Shown piece by piece: positions 2,842-38,939 of a DNA stretch of 41,013 bases (its first letter is position 1; every line of letters starts with the position of its first letter). The notes beneath the pieces are model-generated. The model was not told the DNA's origin. It was given only the letters and a program-made list of their open reading frames with translations, and searched no databases. The position numbers and the translations under genes are program-made. Source of the stretch: an uncultured Pseudomonadota bacterium (GTDB taxonomy: Bacteria; Myxococcota_A; UBA796; SXON01); NCBI GenBank assembly GCA_903959175.1, contig CAJBVW010000112.1:1-41013 (forward strand). Reading direction: 5' to 3'.

Positions 2842-5198
<2,357 letters not shown>

Positions 5199-5215
5199 CG
5201 GTGCCTCCTAGCGGC

Positions 5216-6736
<1,521 letters not shown>

Positions 6737-30280: not shown

Positions 30281-31540
30281 TCACTCGCAGGGGTTGTCGA
30301 CCGGGTACCGGATGACGATCTCCGCGCCCACCGGCGGCGCGGCGTCGAAGACCACGTTGTTGGCGAGCGGATCGTAGGTCCACCCGCCCGCGGGGACGCC
30401 GTCCACCCACACCTCGAGCATCGACGGCACGCCGGGCGTCTCGGAGAGGTCGAAGGCGCGCACGTAGAGCGTGCTCTCGAAGCCGATCCGTTCCATCGCC
30501 GGGGCGAGGGTGCAGGTGCAGATGCTCTCCTCGAAGCCGCCGAAGGTCTCGGCGAGGTCCAGGTAGCGCGAGCCGTCTCCCGCCTTGGCCTGCTCCGCGC
30601 CGCAGTCGTTCGAGCAGCCCTCGCCGCGGTCCCCGACGATGGCGGCGATGAAGATGTCGGCGGGATCGAGCTTTAGAGACGTGAGGAAGCTCGCGTAGCC
30701 GGGCACGTCCAGCGGCGAGTGGTCCGGCTCGTCCGAGAGGAAGATGACGGCGAGTCGCGCGTCGTCCCGGTAGAAGCCGGCGTTGTGGCCGGAGGCGAGC
30801 GGCTCGGTGAGCGCCCACCGCATCGCCTCGAGCCCGGCCTCGTCGCCCATCTCGATGTGGCCCACGTCGATGGCCCGCGCGAGGGTGCCCTGCGGGTCGA
30901 TCGTGTCCGGGGTGACGTAGGTGGGGGTGCCGACGAGCTGGCCGGAGTAGATGGGGTTGACGATGTCGGTGGTGACCACGCCCATGTGGTAGTCGAGGTC
31001 AAGCGCCACGAACCACTGGAAGAACTTCTCGATCTCGGTCATCACGCGGTCGCGTTCCTGGTACATCGAGCCCGAGTTGTCGATGACCCACAGCACGTCG
31101 ATGCGATCCGGCTCCTGCTCGAACACGTCGAGCGTCCAGGTGGGGTCGAAGCTGGCGCCCACGACGGGGACGCGGAGGCGGGGCTCGTCGGGGTCGTCCG
31201 AGTCCACGACCACCTCGGCGAGGGCGTCCCAGACGAAGGAGGGCCGGAAGCGGAGCTGGATCGTCTGGCTCTCGCCGGGGACGAGGGTGCCGGTGAGGGG
31301 CTCGAGCTCGTAGTCGGCGAGGCTCTCGTCCTCGCCGTCCAGCCAGGTGCCCGACACGTCGAGCGGCCCCGAGCCTACGTTGGTGAGGGTCACCCGCGCG
31401 CGGTCCTCACAGCCCACGGCCAGCGGAACGAAGCGCACCGAGGGCGGGTCGACCTGGATGTCGGGCTCCGCGTCCGACGGATCGGGCCGTAGTAGCGCTA
31501 AACCCTGGTCCGTACAGCCCAACACCCAGAACAGGAACAT
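30281..31540 (-). CDS. vWA-domain lipoprotein with N-terminal Ig-like domain (copy B)
   Basis: A 419-residue outer-envelope lipoprotein: MFLFWVLGC has a lipobox with Cys9. Residues 30-130 are an Ig-like module (VRFVPLAVGCEDRARVTLTN). A von Willebrand factor A domain starts at about residue 147 with MIDAS Asp154-x-Ser156-x-Ser158 in VIDNSGSM, continuing with FFQWFVALDLDYHMGVVTTD and DARLAVIFLSDEPDHSPLD (third MIDAS ligand region). The Cys-rich segment GEGCSNDCGAEQ and ICTCTLAP and a terminal strand domain follow. Residues run parallel to the neighbour at 31686-32933, clearly a tandem duplicate. A weak leader hairpin lies upstream. It may bind a ligand or partner through the metal site. Confidence 0.9.
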   Translation of the reverse strand: MFLFWVLGCTDQGLALLRPDPSDAEPDIQVDPPSVRFVPLAVGCEDRARVTLTNVGSGPLDVSGTWLDGEDESLADYELEPLTGTLVPGESQTIQLRFRPSFVWDALAEVVVDSDDPDEPRLRVPVVGASFDPTWTLDVFEQEPDRIDVLWVIDNSGSMYQERDRVMTEIEKFFQWFVALDLDYHMGVVTTDIVNPIYSGQLVGTPTYVTPDTIDPQGTLARAIDVGHIEMGDEAGLEAMRWALTEPLASGHNAGFYRDDARLAVIFLSDEPDHSPLDVPGYASFLTSLKLDPADIFIAAIVGDRGEGCSNDCGAEQAKAGDGSRYLDLAETFGGFEESICTCTLAPAMERIGFESTLYVRAFDLSETPGVPSMLEVWVDGVPAGGWTYDPLANNVVFDAAPPVGAEIVIRYPVDNPCE

Positions 31541-31564
31541 GGCGTGGCCCCCCCGTTGGCCGCC

Positions 31565-31582
31565 CCCCGGGTCAACTCGGGG
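31565..31582. other. Hairpin in the leader of the vWA gene (copy B)
   Basis: CCCCGGG / CTCGGGG with loop TCAA forms a 7-bp stem with one G-T pair, 25-42 bases upstream of the ATG at 31540. A perfect 5+1+5 palindrome AGCACCGTGCT lies at 31613-31623, further upstream. Either could be a regulatory structure; nothing more is supported. Confidence 0.25.
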
Positions 31583-31685
31583 GAGGTAACTTGCTTGGTC
31601 GCCATTGAGATAAGCACCGTGCTACCGGGCTGTTTCTCGCGCGGTGGGGTGGGTGTCCGGGCGGGTGGCGGCGGGGGCCGGGCCG

Positions 31686-32933
31686 CTACTCGCAGGTCAT
31701 CGTGGTGGGGTAGCGCACGATGATCTCGTCCCCGTTCAGTGGCGGCAACGTGAACACGATCTCGTTGGTCGCGGCCTCCCACGTCCAGTCCGTGTTCTCG
31801 GCCCCCTCGACGAAGACGGCGATCGCGGTGGGGTCCGTCGGGACGCTGGAGAGGGCGAAGGTGCGCACGTAGCGGGTGGCCTCCAGGCCGATCTCCGACA
31901 GGATCGGGGCGAGGTCGCAAGTGCAGATGCTGCCGAAGACCCCGGAGAAGGCGGTGACCACGTCGAGGTACTTGTCGCCGGGCTGGGCGTCCTGCGCGGC
32001 GCCGTCGCAGGTGTTGCTGCAGCCGGTGCCGTAGTCGCCCACGATGGCGGAGACGAGGATGTCGGAGGGGTCGGCCTTGAGGCCCTGGAGGAAGGAGATG
32101 TAGTGCGCCGAGTCGGGCGCGGAGAACTCGGGCTCATCGGAGAGGTAGACGATCACGAGGTTGGCGTCGGGCCGCATGAAGCCGGCGTTCTCCGCCGAGA
32201 GAACCGGCTCGGAGAAGGCGAGCTCCGTGGCGGCGAGCCCGGACTCGTCCCCCATGTCCTCCGTGCCGACCTGGATCGCCTCGGCCAGCTCGGCCTCGGG
32301 GCTCGGCGTGGCGGGCGTGATGAAGGTGGGCGCGCCGACGAGGCGGCCCGAGTACACGGGGTTCACGACGTCGGTGGTGATGACGCCCATCTGGTAGTCG
32401 AGGTTCAGCGTGGTGAACCACGCGAAGAAGGAGTTGATCGCGGCGGACACCCGCGCCTGCTCCTGGGCCATGGAGCCGGAGTTGTCGATGACCCACACCA
32501 CGTCGACCGGCGAGGCCTCCTGGATGAACCGGTCCGACACGAGCCCCTCGGCGACCGCGGTGCCCTCCGAGGGGACCTCGACCTGCGGCTCCTCGGGGTC
32601 GTCCGAGTGGACGACGATGGTGCCCTCCTGGTCGCCGGGGGCGGCCGGCGAGAAGCGCACGGTGAACGTGAGGCTCTCGGCGGGGGCGAGCGTGCCGGTG
32701 GCCATCTCGGCGGTCCAGGCGGGGTTGCCCTCGGCGTAGGTCCCGGAGACCGTGAGCGGGCCCGCGCCGATGTTCGTGACCGTGACCACCTGCTCGTCGA
32801 CGCAGTTGAGCCCCAGCGTGTCCCAGTCGAGCTGGGAGGGCTCGACCAGGATCTCGGGCAACGGCACCTCGGGCTCGGGTGACCGCTTGTCGAGCTCGTA
32901 GTCCGAGCAGGCGGTCAACAGGGCGAGCAGCAT
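31686..32933 (-). CDS. vWA-domain lipoprotein with N-terminal Ig-like domain (copy A)
   Basis: Tandem paralogue of the next gene, 415 residues, from the ATG at 32933. GGAGG lies five bases upstream and the lipobox (MLLALLTAC, Cys9) follows at once, so the longer in-frame start is rejected. Residues 30-125 form the Ig-like module. The vWA domain has MIDAS Asp150-x-Ser152-x-Ser154 (VIDNSGSM), then INSFFAWFTTLNLDYQMGVI and a Cys cluster (GTGCSNTCDGA and ICTCDLAP). The C-terminal domain ends MTCE. The two copies share order and nearly all landmarks but diverge in many positions, which suggests an old duplication with separate ligands. It lies 145 bases downstream of the ExbD gene on the same strand. 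Confidence 0.9.
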   Translation of the reverse strand: MLLALLTACSDYELDKRSPEPEVPLPEILVEPSQLDWDTLGLNCVDEQVVTVTNIGAGPLTVSGTYAEGNPAWTAEMATGTLAPAESLTFTVRFSPAAPGDQEGTIVVHSDDPEEPQVEVPSEGTAVAEGLVSDRFIQEASPVDVVWVIDNSGSMAQEQARVSAAINSFFAWFTTLNLDYQMGVITTDVVNPVYSGRLVGAPTFITPATPSPEAELAEAIQVGTEDMGDESGLAATELAFSEPVLSAENAGFMRPDANLVIVYLSDEPEFSAPDSAHYISFLQGLKADPSDILVSAIVGDYGTGCSNTCDGAAQDAQPGDKYLDVVTAFSGVFGSICTCDLAPILSEIGLEATRYVRTFALSSVPTDPTAIAVFVEGAENTDWTWEAATNEIVFTLPPLNGDEIIVRYPTTMTCE

Positions 32934-32950
32934 GGGGGCCTCCGGCTGGT

Positions 32951-32959
32951 ATAATAGCA
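32951..32959 (-). promoter_or_regulatory. Extended -10 element upstream of the vWA pair
   Basis: On the minus strand TGCTATTAT (extended TGn plus TATTAT) stands out as one of the few A/T-rich hexamers in the region. It would start transcription near 32944, eleven bases before the ATG, just before the GGAGG site. No convincing -35 is seen. It suggests the vWA genes can be transcribed apart from the exb genes. Confidence 0.4.
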
Positions 32960-33032
32960 AGGTCCATGCCACCCTACACCCCCGCGCGTATCGGCCGCGC
33001 GGGACGTTCGCCCTTCGGGCCGGCGCGTGGTT

Positions 33033-33048
33033 GGGGCAGCCGTGCCCC
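33033..33048. terminator. Weak hairpin after the second ExbD gene
   Basis: GGGGCA / TGCCCC with a four-base loop lies about 30 bases past the stop of the ExbD gene in the direction of transcription. A short GCCC-GAA-GGGC hairpin follows. There is no T-tract. It may end the exb operon partly. Confidence 0.3.
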
Positions 33049-33078
33049 GAGAGGTGCGGCAGGGTTGCTACAGGTCCG

Positions 33079-33534
33079 TCACAGGCTCGACGTGCTGGCG
33101 GCCACGAGTGAGAGGTCTTCGAAGCCGGCGGTGCGCGCCGTGTGGAGCACGCGTTTGAGCACGCCCCAGGGGATGGCGCGATCCGCGTGGACCTCGATGC
33201 GCTTCTTGCCGCGCATGAGCAGGAGCGGGTCGTAGATCTCGCGGACCAGCAGCTCCTCCGGCAGGTAGTTCACGGCGATGACGCGCCGCCCGTCGATGTA
33301 GACGGCGTCCTTGGAGACCAGGACGACGACGGAGCCGGTCGAGCGGGCGGCCTCGGAGGTCGTGCCCGCGAGCTCGAACCGCCCCTCCGGCGGCATCGGC
33401 GCCGACTCCGTGGAGTAGGAGCGCAGCAGGAAGACCAGCATCAACGTCATCATGTCGACGAGCGGGGCGAGGGCGCCGACGTCGAGCCCCGGGGTGATCC
33501 CGCCCGCGTCGCCACGGAACATGCGGCGCCTCAT
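33079..33534 (-). CDS. exbD: ExbD/TolR-family protein, canonical
   Basis: Proton-channel partner of ExbB-type proteins, 151 residues. The single membrane helix reads PLVDMMTLMLVFLLRSY and includes the Asp that takes up protons in ExbD and TolR. A periplasmic domain follows (SVVVLVSKDAVYIDGRRVIA, then KRIEVHADRAIPWGVLKRVL and VLHTARTAGFEDLSLVA), the standard ExbD fold. Its ATG overlaps the stop of the upstream, degenerate ExbD gene (ATGA). The set ExbB-ExbD-ExbD without a nearby TonB suggests energy coupling to another partner, perhaps one of the proteins encoded beside it. Confidence 0.93.
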   Translation of the reverse strand: MRRRMFRGDAGGITPGLDVGALAPLVDMMTLMLVFLLRSYSTESAPMPPEGRFELAGTTSEAARSTGSVVVLVSKDAVYIDGRRVIAVNYLPEELLVREIYDPLLLMRGKKRIEVHADRAIPWGVLKRVLHTARTAGFEDLSLVAASTSSL

Positions 33535-34055
33535 CCCGCGCTCCCGGTGAGCGCGATCTTGCTGAAGAGCGGCGCGGCCTCGGGGCCGTGCAGCACGTCC
33601 ATCACGGCGATGATGGTCTCGGGGGTGACGGCGTCGTCGGGGGCGAGGCTGGCGCGCTCCTGCGAGGGGTCGATGGCGTGGAGCTCCTCAAGCGCGGCGA
33701 GGAGGCCGGCGAGATCGGGGCGCCCGGCGACGCCGGGGAGGTCCTTCTGGCGCTGCTCCACGGTGGTGGAGGCCGCCGAGATGTCGGTGGACTGGAGCGT
33801 GTAGACGACGGTGAGCGTCGACCCGGAGAGGGTCACCGCCACGTCCTTGACGAGGCCGGCGTGGGGCAGCGGCGCGAGGTCCGACGGGGAGCCGAGGCGA
33901 AGGTCGAGCACGCCGAGGCGCTGGCCGGAGGAGGTCGTGAGCAGGAAGAAGAGCAGGAGGAACATGAGCGTCACCACCCCGAGCAGGGTGGGACGGACGT
34001 CGGCCTCGGCGGCGGGCTCGCCGGCAGAGCGCCCGAAGAGGCCGCGTCGGCTCAC
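33531..34055 (-). CDS. ExbD/TolR-like protein lacking the membrane aspartate
   Basis: A 174-residue protein from a GTG start overlapping the ExbB stop. Its membrane helix reads TLLGVVTLMFLLLFFLLT; compared with the neighbouring ExbD (PLVDMMTLMLVFLL) the key Asp is replaced by Gly. The outer domain is longer and rich in Ala, Asp and Pro (KDVAVTLSGSTLTVVYTLQS, then PDLAGLLAALEELHAID). ExbD acts as a dimer inside a pentameric ExbB, so a dimer of one active and one inactive chain would be unusual. It could also form a structural partner only. It shares strand and overlaps with both neighbours. Confidence 0.85.
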   Translation of the reverse strand: MSRRGLFGRSAGEPAAEADVRPTLLGVVTLMFLLLFFLLTTSSGQRLGVLDLRLGSPSDLAPLPHAGLVKDVAVTLSGSTLTVVYTLQSTDISAASTTVEQRQKDLPGVAGRPDLAGLLAALEELHAIDPSQERASLAPDDAVTPETIIAVMDVLHGPEAAPLFSKIALTGSAG

Positions 34056-34663
34056 GATTGGCGCGCCGCCTTCAGGGAGAGGATGAGGCGGGTCGCGACG
34101 CGCTCGATGTTGCCGAGGAGCTCGCGGGCGTTGGCGTCGGCCACGGCGTGGGCGGCGAGGGCCGGGATGGCGACGAGGAGGCCGAAGGCGGTGGTGGCCA
34201 TGGCGGTCGAGCTGCCCTCGGAGAGCTGGGCGGCGCGCTCGGCGGCGGCGACGTCCCCGAGGGCGCCGAACGCGAGGATGAGGCCGTAGACCGTGCCGAA
34301 GAGGCCGATCATCGTGGCGATGGAGGCGACGGCGGAGAGGTAGGGGATGCGGCGGCGCACCTTGAGCTCGGCCGCGACGGACGCGGCGCTCATGGCCTCC
34401 CAGGCGAGGTCGGGGTCCCGGTAGGCGAGGCCGGCGCGGACGACCTCCTCCATCGGGGTGGTGCCGAGCGTCACATCGGCGGTGCCACCGGTCTTCACCG
34501 CGGCCTCGACCTTCAGGATCATCGCCTCCGGGTCGCACTGGTAGCGGAACAGGCTGAGCGTGCGCTCGATGACGACGGCGAGCGCGAACGCCATGACCGC
34601 GAGCAGCGCGTACATGAAGATCGCCGCCGAGCCCGAGAAGGCGGTCATCAGGTAGGTCAGCAT
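34052..34663 (-). CDS. exbB: ExbB/TolQ/MotA-family protein
   Basis: The proton-channel scaffold of an Exb/Tol-type motor, 203 residues with three membrane helices: residues about 12-31, 105-130 and 158-178. The second helix includes SAVASIATMIGLFGTVYGLI, the classic GLxGTVxG motif, and the third TTAFGLLVAIPALAAH. The cytoplasmic loop between helices 1 and 2 is about 70 residues, as in ExbB and TolQ. Its stop overlaps the first ExbD-like gene (GTGA). It stands 4 bases after the gene for the Cys-repeat protein and probably belongs to one operon with it. Confidence 0.93.
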   Translation of the reverse strand: MLTYLMTAFSGSAAIFMYALLAVMAFALAVVIERTLSLFRYQCDPEAMILKVEAAVKTGGTADVTLGTTPMEEVVRAGLAYRDPDLAWEAMSAASVAAELKVRRRIPYLSAVASIATMIGLFGTVYGLILAFGALGDVAAAERAAQLSEGSSTAMATTAFGLLVAIPALAAHAVADANARELLGNIERVATRLILSLKAARQS

Positions 34664-34667
34664 GGGT

Positions 34668-35606
34668 TCATCTCTTGAGGAACACGAGGCAACGCTCGCG
34701 GATCGTGGAGGTTGCGATGCTCTCGCACAGGGCGACGCCGCGCGCGGGGTCGAAGCGCTTGAGCTGGTGGGCCACGCCCTGGCGGCAGTTGTCTTCGTAC
34801 GGGGTCACGGTGGCGCAGGTGGCGAGCGTCGCGTCGGGGTCGCGCTCGGCGGCGCCCCAGCCGACGCCGTGGAAGCAGTTGCCGCGCCAGGCGTCGGTCG
34901 CGCGGCCGCAGGCGGCGGCGGCCTCCTTGAAGTCCCGCCGCGCGAGGTACTTGCCGATGCCGTGCCAGCAGGTCTTGCGGGTGAGCTCGTCGCCCTCCTC
35001 GCGGCTGCAGAAGGTGACCGCGGGCTCGAGGCCCTCGAGCGCGACCTCGCCCACGACGTCGTGGCGGCAGAAGTCCCGGAAGGCCTCGGCGTGCTCGCAG
35101 CGTCCGAGCGCGTAGACGGGGTCGAGCTCGGCGAGGGCCAGCCCCATGCCGAAGTGGCACTGGCCGCGCCACTTCACGGCGGGGATGCCGTCACAGATGC
35201 GCTCGGCGGCGGCGCGGTCGATCGGCGCGACGGCCTCGGCGACGTCGGCCTCGCACTCGAGCATCAGCTCGGTGCCCGCGATGCGCTCGCACACCTGGAG
35301 CGCGCCCTGGGGGTCCCGCGCGGCGGACTGCCGGGCGAGGGCCTGGAGGCACACGTCCTTCACGTCCTTCGCCATCGCGCCGCACGCCTCGAGCGTCAGG
35401 AGCGCGACGCCCGCGCCTCCGCCGTCCTCCGACACGGGGCGCTCGGCGCCGTCGGGCTTCGGCGGGAGGGCCATGAAGCCGTCCGACGAGGCCGCGGGCG
35501 CGACGACGGCCGCCACGTGCACGGCAAACGACTCCAGCCCGAACCGGAGTCCGAGCAGAACGGCCATGCAGGCGACGACTAGGAGGGTGAAGGGGAGGGA
35601 GCGCAC
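34668..35606 (-). CDS. Membrane-anchored protein with eight Cys-pair helical repeats
   Basis: A 312-residue protein with one N-terminal hydrophobic segment (residues 5-22; VVAC could also be read as a lipobox) and a Gly/Asp-rich linker. Residues 70-312 form eight similar units of about 30-36 residues. Each has a Cys, about 11-14 residues later a second Cys, then a GxGxxLAxxD-type helix pair and the next Cys: EAC/DVC, QVC/LEC, RIC/GQC, GRC/DFC, TFC/KTC, AAC/GNC, ATC/DNC and ALC/ERC. The spacing suggests one disulfide per helical hairpin, like Sel1 or TPR but oxidised, hence periplasmic. GTG start; it follows the small membrane protein gene with one base between. No close family is recognised. 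Confidence 0.75.
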   Translation of the reverse strand: MRSLPFTLLVVACMAVLLGLRFGLESFAVHVAAVVAPAASSDGFMALPPKPDGAERPVSEDGGGAGVALLTLEACGAMAKDVKDVCLQALARQSAARDPQGALQVCERIAGTELMLECEADVAEAVAPIDRAAAERICDGIPAVKWRGQCHFGMGLALAELDPVYALGRCEHAEAFRDFCRHDVVGEVALEGLEPAVTFCSREEGDELTRKTCWHGIGKYLARRDFKEAAAACGRATDAWRGNCFHGVGWGAAERDPDATLATCATVTPYEDNCRQGVAHQLKRFDPARGVALCESIATSTIRERCLVFLKR

Positions 35607-35607
35607 G

Positions 35608-35784
35608 TCATTCGGTGTAGCCGAGGTCCTGCATCCACTTCTCGTACTCGGCGCGCTTGATGTCCTCGTACTTCTGCTCCACCGTTACGGGCGGGGGCGG
35701 TTCGGGGCGGAGCTGCCAGTACGCGAGGGCGCCGGTGCCGAGCGCGGCGACGAAGCTGCCGCCGAGGATGAGAACCTTGCGCAT
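35608..35784 (-). CDS. Small single-span membrane protein, 58 residues
   Basis: First gene of the exb-type operon. A basic start MRKVLILGGSFVAALG leads into one membrane helix (residues 4-22) and then a soluble tail with a Pro run (RPEPPPPVTVE) and QKYEDIKRAEYEKWMQDLGY. It is not recognised. A longer reading with an upstream ATG gives a chain without hydrophobic start, so the ATG at 35784 is preferred. Its position before the Cys-repeat and ExbB/ExbD genes makes it a likely minor component of the same system. Confidence 0.65.
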   Translation of the reverse strand: MRKVLILGGSFVAALGTGALAYWQLRPEPPPPVTVEQKYEDIKRAEYEKWMQDLGYTE

Positions 35785-35969: not shown

Positions 35970-38939
35970 ATGCGCCGTATCCCCCTCCTGCTGACGCTCG
36001 GCGTCCTCCCCTTCATGGCGTTCGCCGACGCGCCCCCGCGCGCCAAGATGGAGGTCAAGTACAAGCAGTACGACGTGAAGATGCGGGACTTCAACTTCCC
36101 GTCCGGGCTCCGCATCATCTTCCAGGAAGACGACAGCCAGCCCATCGTCTCGATCACCTCCGTCATCGACCGCGGCAGCACCTCGGATCCCGAGGGCCTC
36201 GAGGGCATCGCCCACGTGGCCGAGCACATGTGGTTCCGCTCCAAGCAGAAGGACGCTGACGGCAAGCCGCTCCCGAAGGTGTGGGACCTCCTCCGCGAGA
36301 TGGGGGCGAACCTCAACGCCTCGACCGCGGACGACTGGACCAACTACATGACGGTCGCGCCGGTCGACAAGCTCGTGCCGCTCCTCCGCCTCGAGTCGCT
36401 CCGCATGAAGTCGGCGTGGGAGGGCATCGAGAACGAGGTGCTCCTCACCGAGCGCGAGGTCGTCCGCAACGAGCTCCGCATGCGGTACGAGAACGCGCCG
36501 CAGGCCGCCTTCGGGTACATGATGGTCAAGTTGTTCCCGTCTAACCACGTCTACGGGCGTGCTGCCTACGCGGGCATCGGCAACAACGACTCGCTCAACG
36601 CGATCACCATGCCGGACGTGAAGAAGTTCTTCCAGGACAACTACGGCCCGGCGAACACCACGATCGTCGTCGTCGGCGACTTCAAGCTCGAAGACGCCCC
36701 GAAGTTCCTCGACGAGTTCGCGATCGACCAGCTGGTCGACCCGAAGAACCCGACGGACGAGATCAAGCTCGTCGAGCCGAAGGTGCGCGTCGCCGGCGCC
36801 TCCGCCGAGCCCCCGGCGCCCCCGGCCCCCCTCCTCGTGAAGGGCGACATCACGGGCCTCACCACCGAGCACGGTGCGGTCGAGAAGCCCACGCTCATCC
36901 TCGGTTGGACGCTGCCCGGCGGCTACCGCGACAACGAGCCGATGATGAACCTCGCGGCGTTCCAGCTCACCCTGGCCATCCGCCAGGAGATGTTCCCGAG
37001 CTGGGACTACAAGCAGGACCGCTCTGACATCGAGAGCCTCGGCTGCTTCCTGCAGCCGCAGAAGGAAGCCTCGATGGCCTGGTGCTTCATCGAGATCAGC
37101 GACGAGAAGGAGGCCCCCCGCCTCGCCGAGAAGGCGCTCGACGGCCTCTACCGCGTGTGGAGCGCCGACGAATACTACCGCTCCTTCCAGGAGTACCTGT
37201 TCTCCTACACGAAGACCCAGCAGCTCGCCTCGGTGTTCCAGAACGTCGACCTCGTCTCCTCCATCGGCAACGGGCGCGCGGCGGACACGGCGAACTTCGT
37301 CCACTACACCGGTGACCCGCTCTACTACTCGCGTCAGTTCGAGTGGATCAACAAGATCACGGCCGACCAGGCCCGCAAGCTCGCGGAGAAGTACCTCAAC
37401 CGCGGCCGCGCGGCGGCGGTGCTCATGCTGCCCTACGAAGAGGGCGATCTCGCGATGGACACGGCCGACGCGCAGTACCGCGGCGCCCGTCGTGAGGACG
37501 TGCTCGACACGAGCCTCACCGCCGCCCAGCTGACCCCGGCCGCCATCGAGGCCGCCGTCATCCCGCCGGACGTGTCGAAGCTCAAGGAGACCACCCTCCC
37601 GAGCGGCGTCAAGCTCGTCTCGATGGCCCACTCGAACGCCCCGCTCGTGCAGGTGCGCCTCGTGTTCGGCGGCGGCCAGGACAGCCTGCCCGACGGCTCG
37701 GCGTCCTTCGCGTCCAGCATGTGGAAGAACGAGAGCGTGGTCGACGCCCTCCGCATCGTCGGCTTCGACAACTTCTCGATGGGCGGCCTCTCGACCGAGT
37801 TCGACATCTCGTCCTCGGCCGGCAACCTCGAAGACGCGCTCTACGTCATCCGCGACCGCATCGACAACCTCAAGGCCTACACCGACGGCCGGATGGACTG
37901 GGTCAAGGACCGCAAGAGCGGCGTCCTCGGCTGGATGAAGGACCCCGCCGAGTGGGCGTCGCGCACGTCCCTCGAGCGCGTGCTCCCGAACCACCCGTAC
38001 TCCCGCTGGTACACCCACGGCGACTACGACACGATGAACGCGTGGACCACGAAGGTCTCGAACGACGTGTTCTCCCACGTGCTCCGCCCCGAGAACGCGA
38101 CGCTGTTCATCATCGGGAACGCCACGCAGGAAGAGGCCAGCAAGGCCGCGAACACCTACTTCGGCGGGTGGACCGGCTGGGGCAAGGCGCCCACCGACGG
38201 CAAGACGCTCCTCACGAGCTACCCCGCCGCCACCGAGCCCCCGGCCCGCCAGGTGTTGCTCTTCAACAAGGACAACTCCAGCCAGTCGAACGTGTCGTAC
38301 TCCTGCCAGCTCGGCGAGGTCACGGACAAGAACATCGCCGCGGCGCAGATCCTCGGTGACGCGCTCTCCGAGGACACCTGGCTCGCCCTCCGCGAGCAGA
38401 CCGGCGCGTCCTACGGCGCCTACGCCGGCGCCAGCATGCAGCGCGGCGGCGTCGCGTTCCTGAACATGGCCAGCCTCGTGCAGAACGACGCCTCGCCCCT
38501 CGCGGTGAAGGTGTTCCTCGAGCTCGGCGAGAAGGCCAAGCGCGGCGACATTCGGGAGAAGACCCTCCAGATCGTCAAGTACAACCGGGCCCAGGGCTAT
38601 GTGGCCGGGCACCAGTCCACGGCGCAGATGATGGGCCGCATCGCGGGCACCTTCGCGCTCGGCTGGGGCTCCGACTACTTCCGCAGCTACCCGAAGCAGC
38701 TCGCCAACGTCACGATCGACCAGATCAAGCCGCTGCTCGACCGCTGCGTCGGCCACGAGGTCGTCACGGTCGTCGGCCCGGTGGACGCCATCAAGCCGCT
38801 CTTCGACAAGCAGGGCATCACGTACGAGGTCTTCGACTGGAAGCAGGCGAAGCTCGACTACGCCACGAAGTTCGGTCTGAAGGACGTGCTCAAGGCCGAC
38901 GAGAAGAAGAAGAAGGAAGAGGCGAAGAAGGGCAAGTAA
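35970..38939 (+). CDS. Exported M16 zinc metalloprotease, two-domain fused form
   Basis: A 989-residue secreted protease of the pitrilysin/insulinase type. A signal peptide (MRRIPLLLTLGVLPFMAFA, cleavage before DAPP) sends it to the periplasm. The first half has the inverted zinc motif HVAEH (His82, Glu85, His86) and EREVVRNE (Glu161, Glu168), with Glu168 as third zinc ligand. Two pairs of M16 domains follow; the second half (from about LPSGVKLVSM) lacks HxxEH and has DGSASFASSM there, so it is structural. The C-terminus is Lys/Glu-rich (KADEKKKKEEAKKGK). It may process peptides or proteins in the envelope. GGAG lies before the ATG. Confidence 0.95.
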   Translation: MRRIPLLLTLGVLPFMAFADAPPRAKMEVKYKQYDVKMRDFNFPSGLRIIFQEDDSQPIVSITSVIDRGSTSDPEGLEGIAHVAEHMWFRSKQKDADGKPLPKVWDLLREMGANLNASTADDWTNYMTVAPVDKLVPLLRLESLRMKSAWEGIENEVLLTEREVVRNELRMRYENAPQAAFGYMMVKLFPSNHVYGRAAYAGIGNNDSLNAITMPDVKKFFQDNYGPANTTIVVVGDFKLEDAPKFLDEFAIDQLVDPKNPTDEIKLVEPKVRVAGASAEPPAPPAPLLVKGDITGLTTEHGAVEKPTLILGWTLPGGYRDNEPMMNLAAFQLTLAIRQEMFPSWDYKQDRSDIESLGCFLQPQKEASMAWCFIEISDEKEAPRLAEKALDGLYRVWSADEYYRSFQEYLFSYTKTQQLASVFQNVDLVSSIGNGRAADTANFVHYTGDPLYYSRQFEWINKITADQARKLAEKYLNRGRAAAVLMLPYEEGDLAMDTADAQYRGARREDVLDTSLTAAQLTPAAIEAAVIPPDVSKLKETTLPSGVKLVSMAHSNAPLVQVRLVFGGGQDSLPDGSASFASSMWKNESVVDALRIVGFDNFSMGGLSTEFDISSSAGNLEDALYVIRDRIDNLKAYTDGRMDWVKDRKSGVLGWMKDPAEWASRTSLERVLPNHPYSRWYTHGDYDTMNAWTTKVSNDVFSHVLRPENATLFIIGNATQEEASKAANTYFGGWTGWGKAPTDGKTLLTSYPAATEPPARQVLLFNKDNSSQSNVSYSCQLGEVTDKNIAAAQILGDALSEDTWLALREQTGASYGAYAGASMQRGGVAFLNMASLVQNDASPLAVKVFLELGEKAKRGDIREKTLQIVKYNRAQGYVAGHQSTAQMMGRIAGTFALGWGSDYFRSYPKQLANVTIDQIKPLLDRCVGHEVVTVVGPVDAIKPLFDKQGITYEVFDWKQAKLDYATKFGLKDVLKADEKKKKEEAKKGK

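Follow-up and report, generated by a model that had tools for sequence, protein, structure and literature searches.

Trans-envelope systems powered by 5:2 motors are few, and the only transducers described for them are of the TonB/TolA type and, tentatively, of the vWA type. The nearest published parallel to the locus considered here is the class of vWA force transducers proposed in 2025, which occur with a tolQ-like gene, two unlike tolR-like genes and a TPR gene (PMC12204202). The locus lies on contig CAJBVW010000112.1 of assembly GCA_903959175.1 (genome G000), in a stretch of 41,013 nucleotides hereafter called the window, and its conserved core consists of the genes tm58, cysR, exbB, exbD1 and exbD2. 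As in the vWA class, a single ExbB/TolQ protein is combined with two unlike ExbD/TolR proteins, with a gene for a helical-repeat protein nearby and a candidate transducer other than TonB. In that class, however, the transducer is a vWA protein anchored by a transmembrane (TM) segment and often carrying the SHLS motor-binding motif, whereas here the TM-anchored conserved protein is the cysteine-repeat protein CysR, which unlike the published TPR gene product matches no TPR family, and the vWA proteins are lipoproteins that are not conserved with the motor. The AglRQS system of Myxococcus xanthus also has one MotA/TolQ/ExbB and two ExbD/TolR proteins in one unit (PMC3169522), but ExbD1 of the window lacks the TM aspartate that is described for AglQ as well as for AglS (PMC9389320), and the descriptions of AglRQS include neither CysR nor the lipoprotein CysL discussed below, so that the module is set apart from AglRQS by description and not by sequence comparison. 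With the Tol-Pal and Ton systems the module shares the ExbB/TolQ and ExbD/TolR homology of its motor and the TM-linker-folded domain layout of the third inner-membrane protein, but no TolB, Pal or TonB-dependent receptor gene stands beside the motor, and CysR has neither an SHLS motif nor a TonB/TolA C-terminal domain. A PP[KR]P motif of CysR falls at the position after the TM segment where the TonB/TolA 'motor box' is found (PMC12204202).

Seven open genes, all on the minus strand, follow one another between positions 30281 and 35784, as the original prediction had stated, and its description of the first five as overlapping or no more than four bases apart was borne out by spacings of +1 (tm58/cysR), +4 (cysR/exbB), -4 (exbB/exbD1) and -4 bases (exbD1/exbD2). 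The two vWA lipoprotein genes follow, with 145 bases separating exbD2 from vwaA and a further 145 separating vwaA from vwaB. The local lack of a TonB or TolA/Pal partner was likewise correctly noted, as TonB, TolA, TolB and Pal genes are absent from the window stretch, and neither tolB nor pal was recognised there or in the neighbourhoods L031-L064. There is about an even chance, in our judgement, that tm58-CysR-ExbB-ExbD1-ExbD2 forms a trans-envelope module of the Tol/Ton kind, driven by the proton-motive force, with CysR as its transducer. The reading of CysR as a transducer is based on its succession of TM segment, linker and periplasmic domain, its linkage and co-occurrence with ExbB, the repeat that it shares with CysL, and the presence of separate Tol and Ton motors in the same genome.

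The distribution of CysR was followed by a single-sequence search of 58 relatives (E 0.001), a profile search of 379 genomes of the phylum and a scan of 84,980 species genomes. Homologues were identified in 37 of the 58 relatives and in 36 of the 379 genomes, every carrier belonging to the window's own order, and the species-genome scan yielded 35 CysR loci, all from uncultured metagenome-assembled genomes titled Myxococcota, Deltaproteobacteria or Proteobacteria/Pseudomonadota, or in some cases plainly wrongly. Four records that encode the module (CAMAXZ010000030.1, CAMAWH010000068.1, CAMBIK010000165.1 and CALQBK020000002.1) are titled Klebsiella pneumoniae or Bifidobacterium breve and look mislabelled. 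In 27 of the 36 genomes cysR adjoins the exb trio, in several gene orders: tm58-cysR-exbB-exbD1-exbD2 is co-directional in 16 of 22 genomes of the window's family (f1), the trio is convergent with cysR at most loci of families f2, f4, f5 and f6, and a third order is found in genome G024. The linkage has thus outlived rearrangement. The cysteine-repeat gene therefore stands beside exbB-exbD-exbD in five families of the order, and the lack of conservation that the original prediction named as grounds for its own dismissal was not encountered. Of CysR and window-type ExbB, 35 genomes have both and 19 have neither, the four discordant genomes being incomplete; when the all-negative family f3 is left out, their co-occurrence gives a Fisher p of 0.007, which is only indicative since the genomes are related. 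Within genus g11 the two proteins are jointly present in G030 and jointly absent from G026 and G035. The first gene of the unit, tm58 (35608-35784, minus strand), encodes 58 amino acids with one TM segment, oriented N-in, followed by a periplasmic tail that is acidic, rich in Pro and terminates in WMQDLGYTE; Pfam and NCBIfam scans gave no match, and its homologues lie upstream of cysR throughout f1 and in f2/f5 (loci L051, L058 and L062).

The cysR gene (34668-35606, minus strand, GTG start) encodes 312 amino acids with a TM segment at residues 6-24 and 17 cysteines, 16 of which form eight pairs. The second cysteine of a pair is followed by the first cysteine of the next pair at a distance of exactly 20 in all seven gaps, and all 16 are invariant across 25 aligned sequences with identities down to 38%, which together place the pattern far from chance. 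In the AlphaFold2 model (predicted local distance difference test score, pLDDT, of 87, and above 90 over most of the solenoid), a TM helix (4-34) and a disordered region (36-67) precede an eight-repeat alpha/alpha solenoid (72-311), which is the N-terminal TM, linker and folded periplasmic domain layout of TonB/TolA-type proteins. In the model the first cysteine of most pairs is placed towards the end of a helix and the second shortly after the start of the following one, so that eight disulfides joining neighbouring helices are expected, at 75-86, 106-118, 138-150, 170-180, 200-213, 233-244, 264-274 and 294-306. The linker contains the invariant PP[KR]P motif after a mostly hydrophobic run, and the alignment also shows three invariant C-x-H motifs (180/182, 213/215 and 244/246) and invariant aromatic residues (W146, Y220 and W250). 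Assignment of CysR to a known repeat family was rejected: Pfam and NCBIfam gave no match, at E 0.5 each Pfam repeat family hit at most 2 of the 25 members, no PDB chain matched by sequence, and Foldseek returned only generic solenoids, with no fold at E 0.001. Paired cysteines in alpha/alpha repeats are also a feature of the Helicobacter cysteine-rich (Hcp) Sel1-like proteins. Unlike these, CysR is membrane-anchored and motor-linked, and it lacks a match to any PDB sequence, Pfam repeat or, at E 0.001, known fold.

For the motor, the exbB product (34052-34663, minus strand; 203 amino acids) belongs to the ExbB/TolQ/MotA family, with three TM segments, a PF01618 match at 1.9e-23, FGTV and TTAFGL motifs that align to TolQ structures, and conserved pore threonines. 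In the ExbB tree, the window protein and its orthologues form a clade of their own (support 99/97), whose sister (98/93) comprises other exbB genes of exbB-exbD-exbD triplets, while TolQ and the TonB-associated ExbB of the genome fall apart from it; a gap in score separates the orthologues, at 219 bits or more, from all other full-length ExbB proteins, which reach no more than 137. ExbD2 (33079-33534, minus strand; 151 amino acids) is a member of the ExbD/TolR family (PF02472, 2.3e-11) and keeps the TM aspartate in LAPLVDMMT, the VD motif being present in all aligned orthologues. ExbD1 (33531-34055, minus strand; 174 amino acids) is ExbD-like and not a standard family member, as its PF02472 match (7e-4, 20.1 bits) lies below the cut-off of 25.4 and the mid-TM aspartate is missing, an absence seen in 31 of 31 orthologues that had escaped the earlier reading of the window. 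Its AlphaFold2 model superimposes on the ExbD periplasmic domain (8vgc/8p9r) with a target TM-score of 0.68-0.70, and RNase H-like and ribosomal folds outrank ExbD among the matches. A mixed pair of this kind is not unique to the CysR module, since another exbB-exbD-exbD clade (L117, on contig C560 of G000, and L091-L096) pairs an ExbD in which Ser replaces Asp with an Asp-bearing one; such single-Asp pairing of ExbD proteins may occur widely across the order.

Ten MotA/ExbB-family genes were found in the genome, and the motor sets to which they belong were identified by sequence inspection and synteny. They include tolQ-tolR, which on contig C318 is part of a set tolQ-tolR-TonB/TolA-like-tolB, an exbB-exbD-tonB set beside a receptor, a flagellar pair and further exbB-exbD-exbD triplets. 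Use of the window motor by the canonical Tol or Ton system was rejected, because each comes with a motor of its own that the ExbB tree places apart; the other ground for dismissal that had been named, a known TonB/Tol set already using these ExbB and ExbD proteins, accordingly did not apply. With linkage across five families and a distinct ExbB clade in addition to these separate motors, the description of the locus as an undescribed envelope system is fair, and a literature search that was not exhaustive found no described pairing of ExbB with a cysteine-repeat protein.

A second cysteine-repeat protein, CysL, appears to be related to the module. It is a small lipoprotein with two cysteine pairs and an invariant RPH motif, its repeat is that of the CysR C-terminus (hhalign probability 88, E 3e-6), and in sister families its gene and exbB are transcribed divergently. 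CysL gave 39 matches in the 58 relatives, none of them in f3. In G000 its gene is unlinked to the window, at 17762-18085 of contig C435 (about 5001-5324 of locus L195), beside p250, tatA and hutI. Because tm58-cysR of some f2 and f5 genomes adjoin the same p250-tatA-hutI block, an ancestral module was likely split in f1. CysL is a better candidate for the outer-membrane component than the vWA pair. The product of p250 is a conserved protein of about 250 amino acids that has no Pfam match and is encoded between cysL or cysR and tatA (5468-6247 of L195; 8334-9086 of L051). A stand-alone response-regulator receiver gene recurs near cysL or exbB (L051, L052, L055, L110, L198, L199, L203 and L204), and a 213-amino-acid lipoprotein with spaced cysteine pairs on contig C15 of G000 (4302-4943 of L205) is a weak relative of CysL.

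It is plausible that five ExbB subunits surround one ExbD1/ExbD2 pair, presumably a heterodimer in which ExbD2 alone would carry the proton-binding aspartate, and that by homology proton flow between ExbB and this pair would drive a rotation or power stroke. As an inner-membrane-anchored protein, CysR would engage the periplasmic domains of ExbD via its PP[KR]P linker, and its rigid alpha-solenoid, stapled by disulfides, would take the periplasmic position of TonB or TolA; CysL would be the likeliest outer-membrane end, through a putative contact with CysR, and the cellular job may be outer-membrane maintenance or a surface function. Somewhat more tentatively, at rather less than an even chance, the module may represent a further transducer class, in which a heterotypic single-Asp ExbD1/ExbD2 motor drives a disulfide-stapled CysR solenoid acting on the homologous CysL. 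If true, a disulfide-rich solenoid in the transducer place would widen the known range of such systems. In addition, published rotary models alternate between two aspartates (PMC12215075), and it is left open in PMC9389320 whether AglQ and AglS dimerise with themselves or with each other; a natural single-Asp ExbD pair would make both the two-Asp alternation and the dimer question testable.

Several points weigh against the transducer reading of CysR. The SHLS motif is absent from the TM segment in all 25 aligned sequences, no TonB_C or TolA C-terminal domain was detected by Pfam or NCBIfam, the contact between CysR and the motor is putative only, and the pmf role of the motor would follow from homology. 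The earlier suggestion that the cysteine-repeat protein receives the force is therefore plausible as regards its TM anchor, disordered linker and periplasmic domain, and less secure as regards the SHLS motif and the presumed coupling. The co-occurrence counts are not independent, given the relatedness of the genomes, and they include a cysR without window-type exbB (only in G014, which is 79% complete) and exbB without cysR in G033, G040 and G043. In 9 of the 36 genomes cysR was not seen beside the exb trio, and among these G003, G006, G008, G010, G012, G022 and G034 have an orthologous exbB set elsewhere. The motor could moreover serve another transducer in G022, since a TonB-like gene and its own exbB-exbD follow the trio there. 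This arrangement (4823-7040 of L111, contig C123) was seen in G022 only, directly after the exb trio, and its TonB-like protein has an S-x3-H motif in the TM segment.

The main rival explanation is that CysR is an obligate motor partner and not a force arm, acting as a scaffold, a plug or activator, or a periplasmic sensor, while the ExbD pair works for example on peptidoglycan and tm58 and CysL serve as adaptors. The missing SHLS motif fits this explanation, as do the compact modelled solenoid without a long extended linker and the invariant C-x-H motifs and aromatic residues, which lie in repeats 4-6 and suggest a binding surface; published tolQ-tolR-tolR clusters also contain TPR genes that are not the transducer (PMC12204202). 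Like TonB and TolA, however, CysR brings a TM anchor of its own with a conserved motif following it, and no other TonB, TolA or vWA transducer is conserved with the exb trio; a scaffold or sensor role appears rather unlikely. A different possibility, to which we assign a low probability, is that the motor serves a TonB/TolA-like protein encoded elsewhere, CysR and CysL having an unrelated envelope function. The genome does contain eleven TonB_C-like matches, many of them within long open frames, exbB-exbD need not adjoin tonB (PMC12204202), and the TonB-like gene after the trio in G022 points the same way; but motor genes adjoin the Ton and Tol sets that could be recognised, CysR co-occurs with the window ExbB clade and no other, mostly in linkage, and the one short free-standing TonB_C match that was inspected (on contig C19) has no obvious TM-linker layout.

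A gliding or adhesion motor like AglRQS, for which the vWA lipoproteins would act as adhesins of the CglB/MIDAS type, seems quite improbable for the locus, even though one ExbB and two ExbD genes are present as in AglRQS (PMC3169522) and the vWA proteins match the MIDASAdhsBdello and gliding_CglD models, at scores (45 bits against a cut-off of 700, and 42 against 400) far too low for membership. ExbD1 lacks the mid-membrane aspartate described for both AglQ and AglS (PMC9389320), conservation with the motor is not seen for the vWA pair, whose family numbers 17-33 copies per genome, the surroundings contained no recognisable Glt genes, although no search was aimed at them, and other exbB-exbD-exbD triplets in the genome could be the Agl homologue. 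Chance association or hitchhiking within a lineage without shared function would agree with the restriction of all carriers to one order and with the large contribution to the co-occurrence made by f3, which lacks both genes. It is nonetheless very improbable, as the module was held together through inversion and relocation (to the M16 side in f1 and the tatA/hutI side in f2/f5), the neighbouring vWA, M16 and aminotransferase genes were not carried along, and its two proteins are jointly present or jointly absent within g11.

Outside the conserved core, vwaA (31686-32933) and vwaB (30281-31540), both on the minus strand, encode tandem vWA/choice-of-anchor D lipoproteins that are 47% identical, with choice-of-anchor D and weak vWA matches, lipobox-like N-termini (MLLALLTAC and MFLFWVLGC) and no TM segment by hydropathy. 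They thus differ from the TM-anchored, motor-linked vWA proteins of the published class (PMC12204202) in their N-termini as well as in their unconserved linkage. The pair lies next to the motor in genus g1 alone, G004 having a single vWA gene there, and in G019 an aminotransferase directly follows exbD2 and a vwaA relative (53%) lies on a different contig from the exb set. The lipoproteins were rejected as core parts because of this lost linkage and their base rate: 17-33 matches were counted per genome in a set of 13 that takes in the module-free G042. Their proposed role as outer-membrane ligands was accordingly not upheld, and the candidate promoter that had been suggested for the pair was not recovered by a consensus scan (0 sites). 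Upstream of the unit, a divergent M16-family protease gene (35970-38939, plus strand; PF00675/PF05193) was not found beside cysR in f2, f4, f5 or f6; it and the aminotransferase, conserved only within f1, were rejected as parts of the module. The vWA/choice-of-anchor D proteins form a large family, with at least 32 homologues in G000, and a different vWA paralogue occurs near p421/cysL in several genomes.

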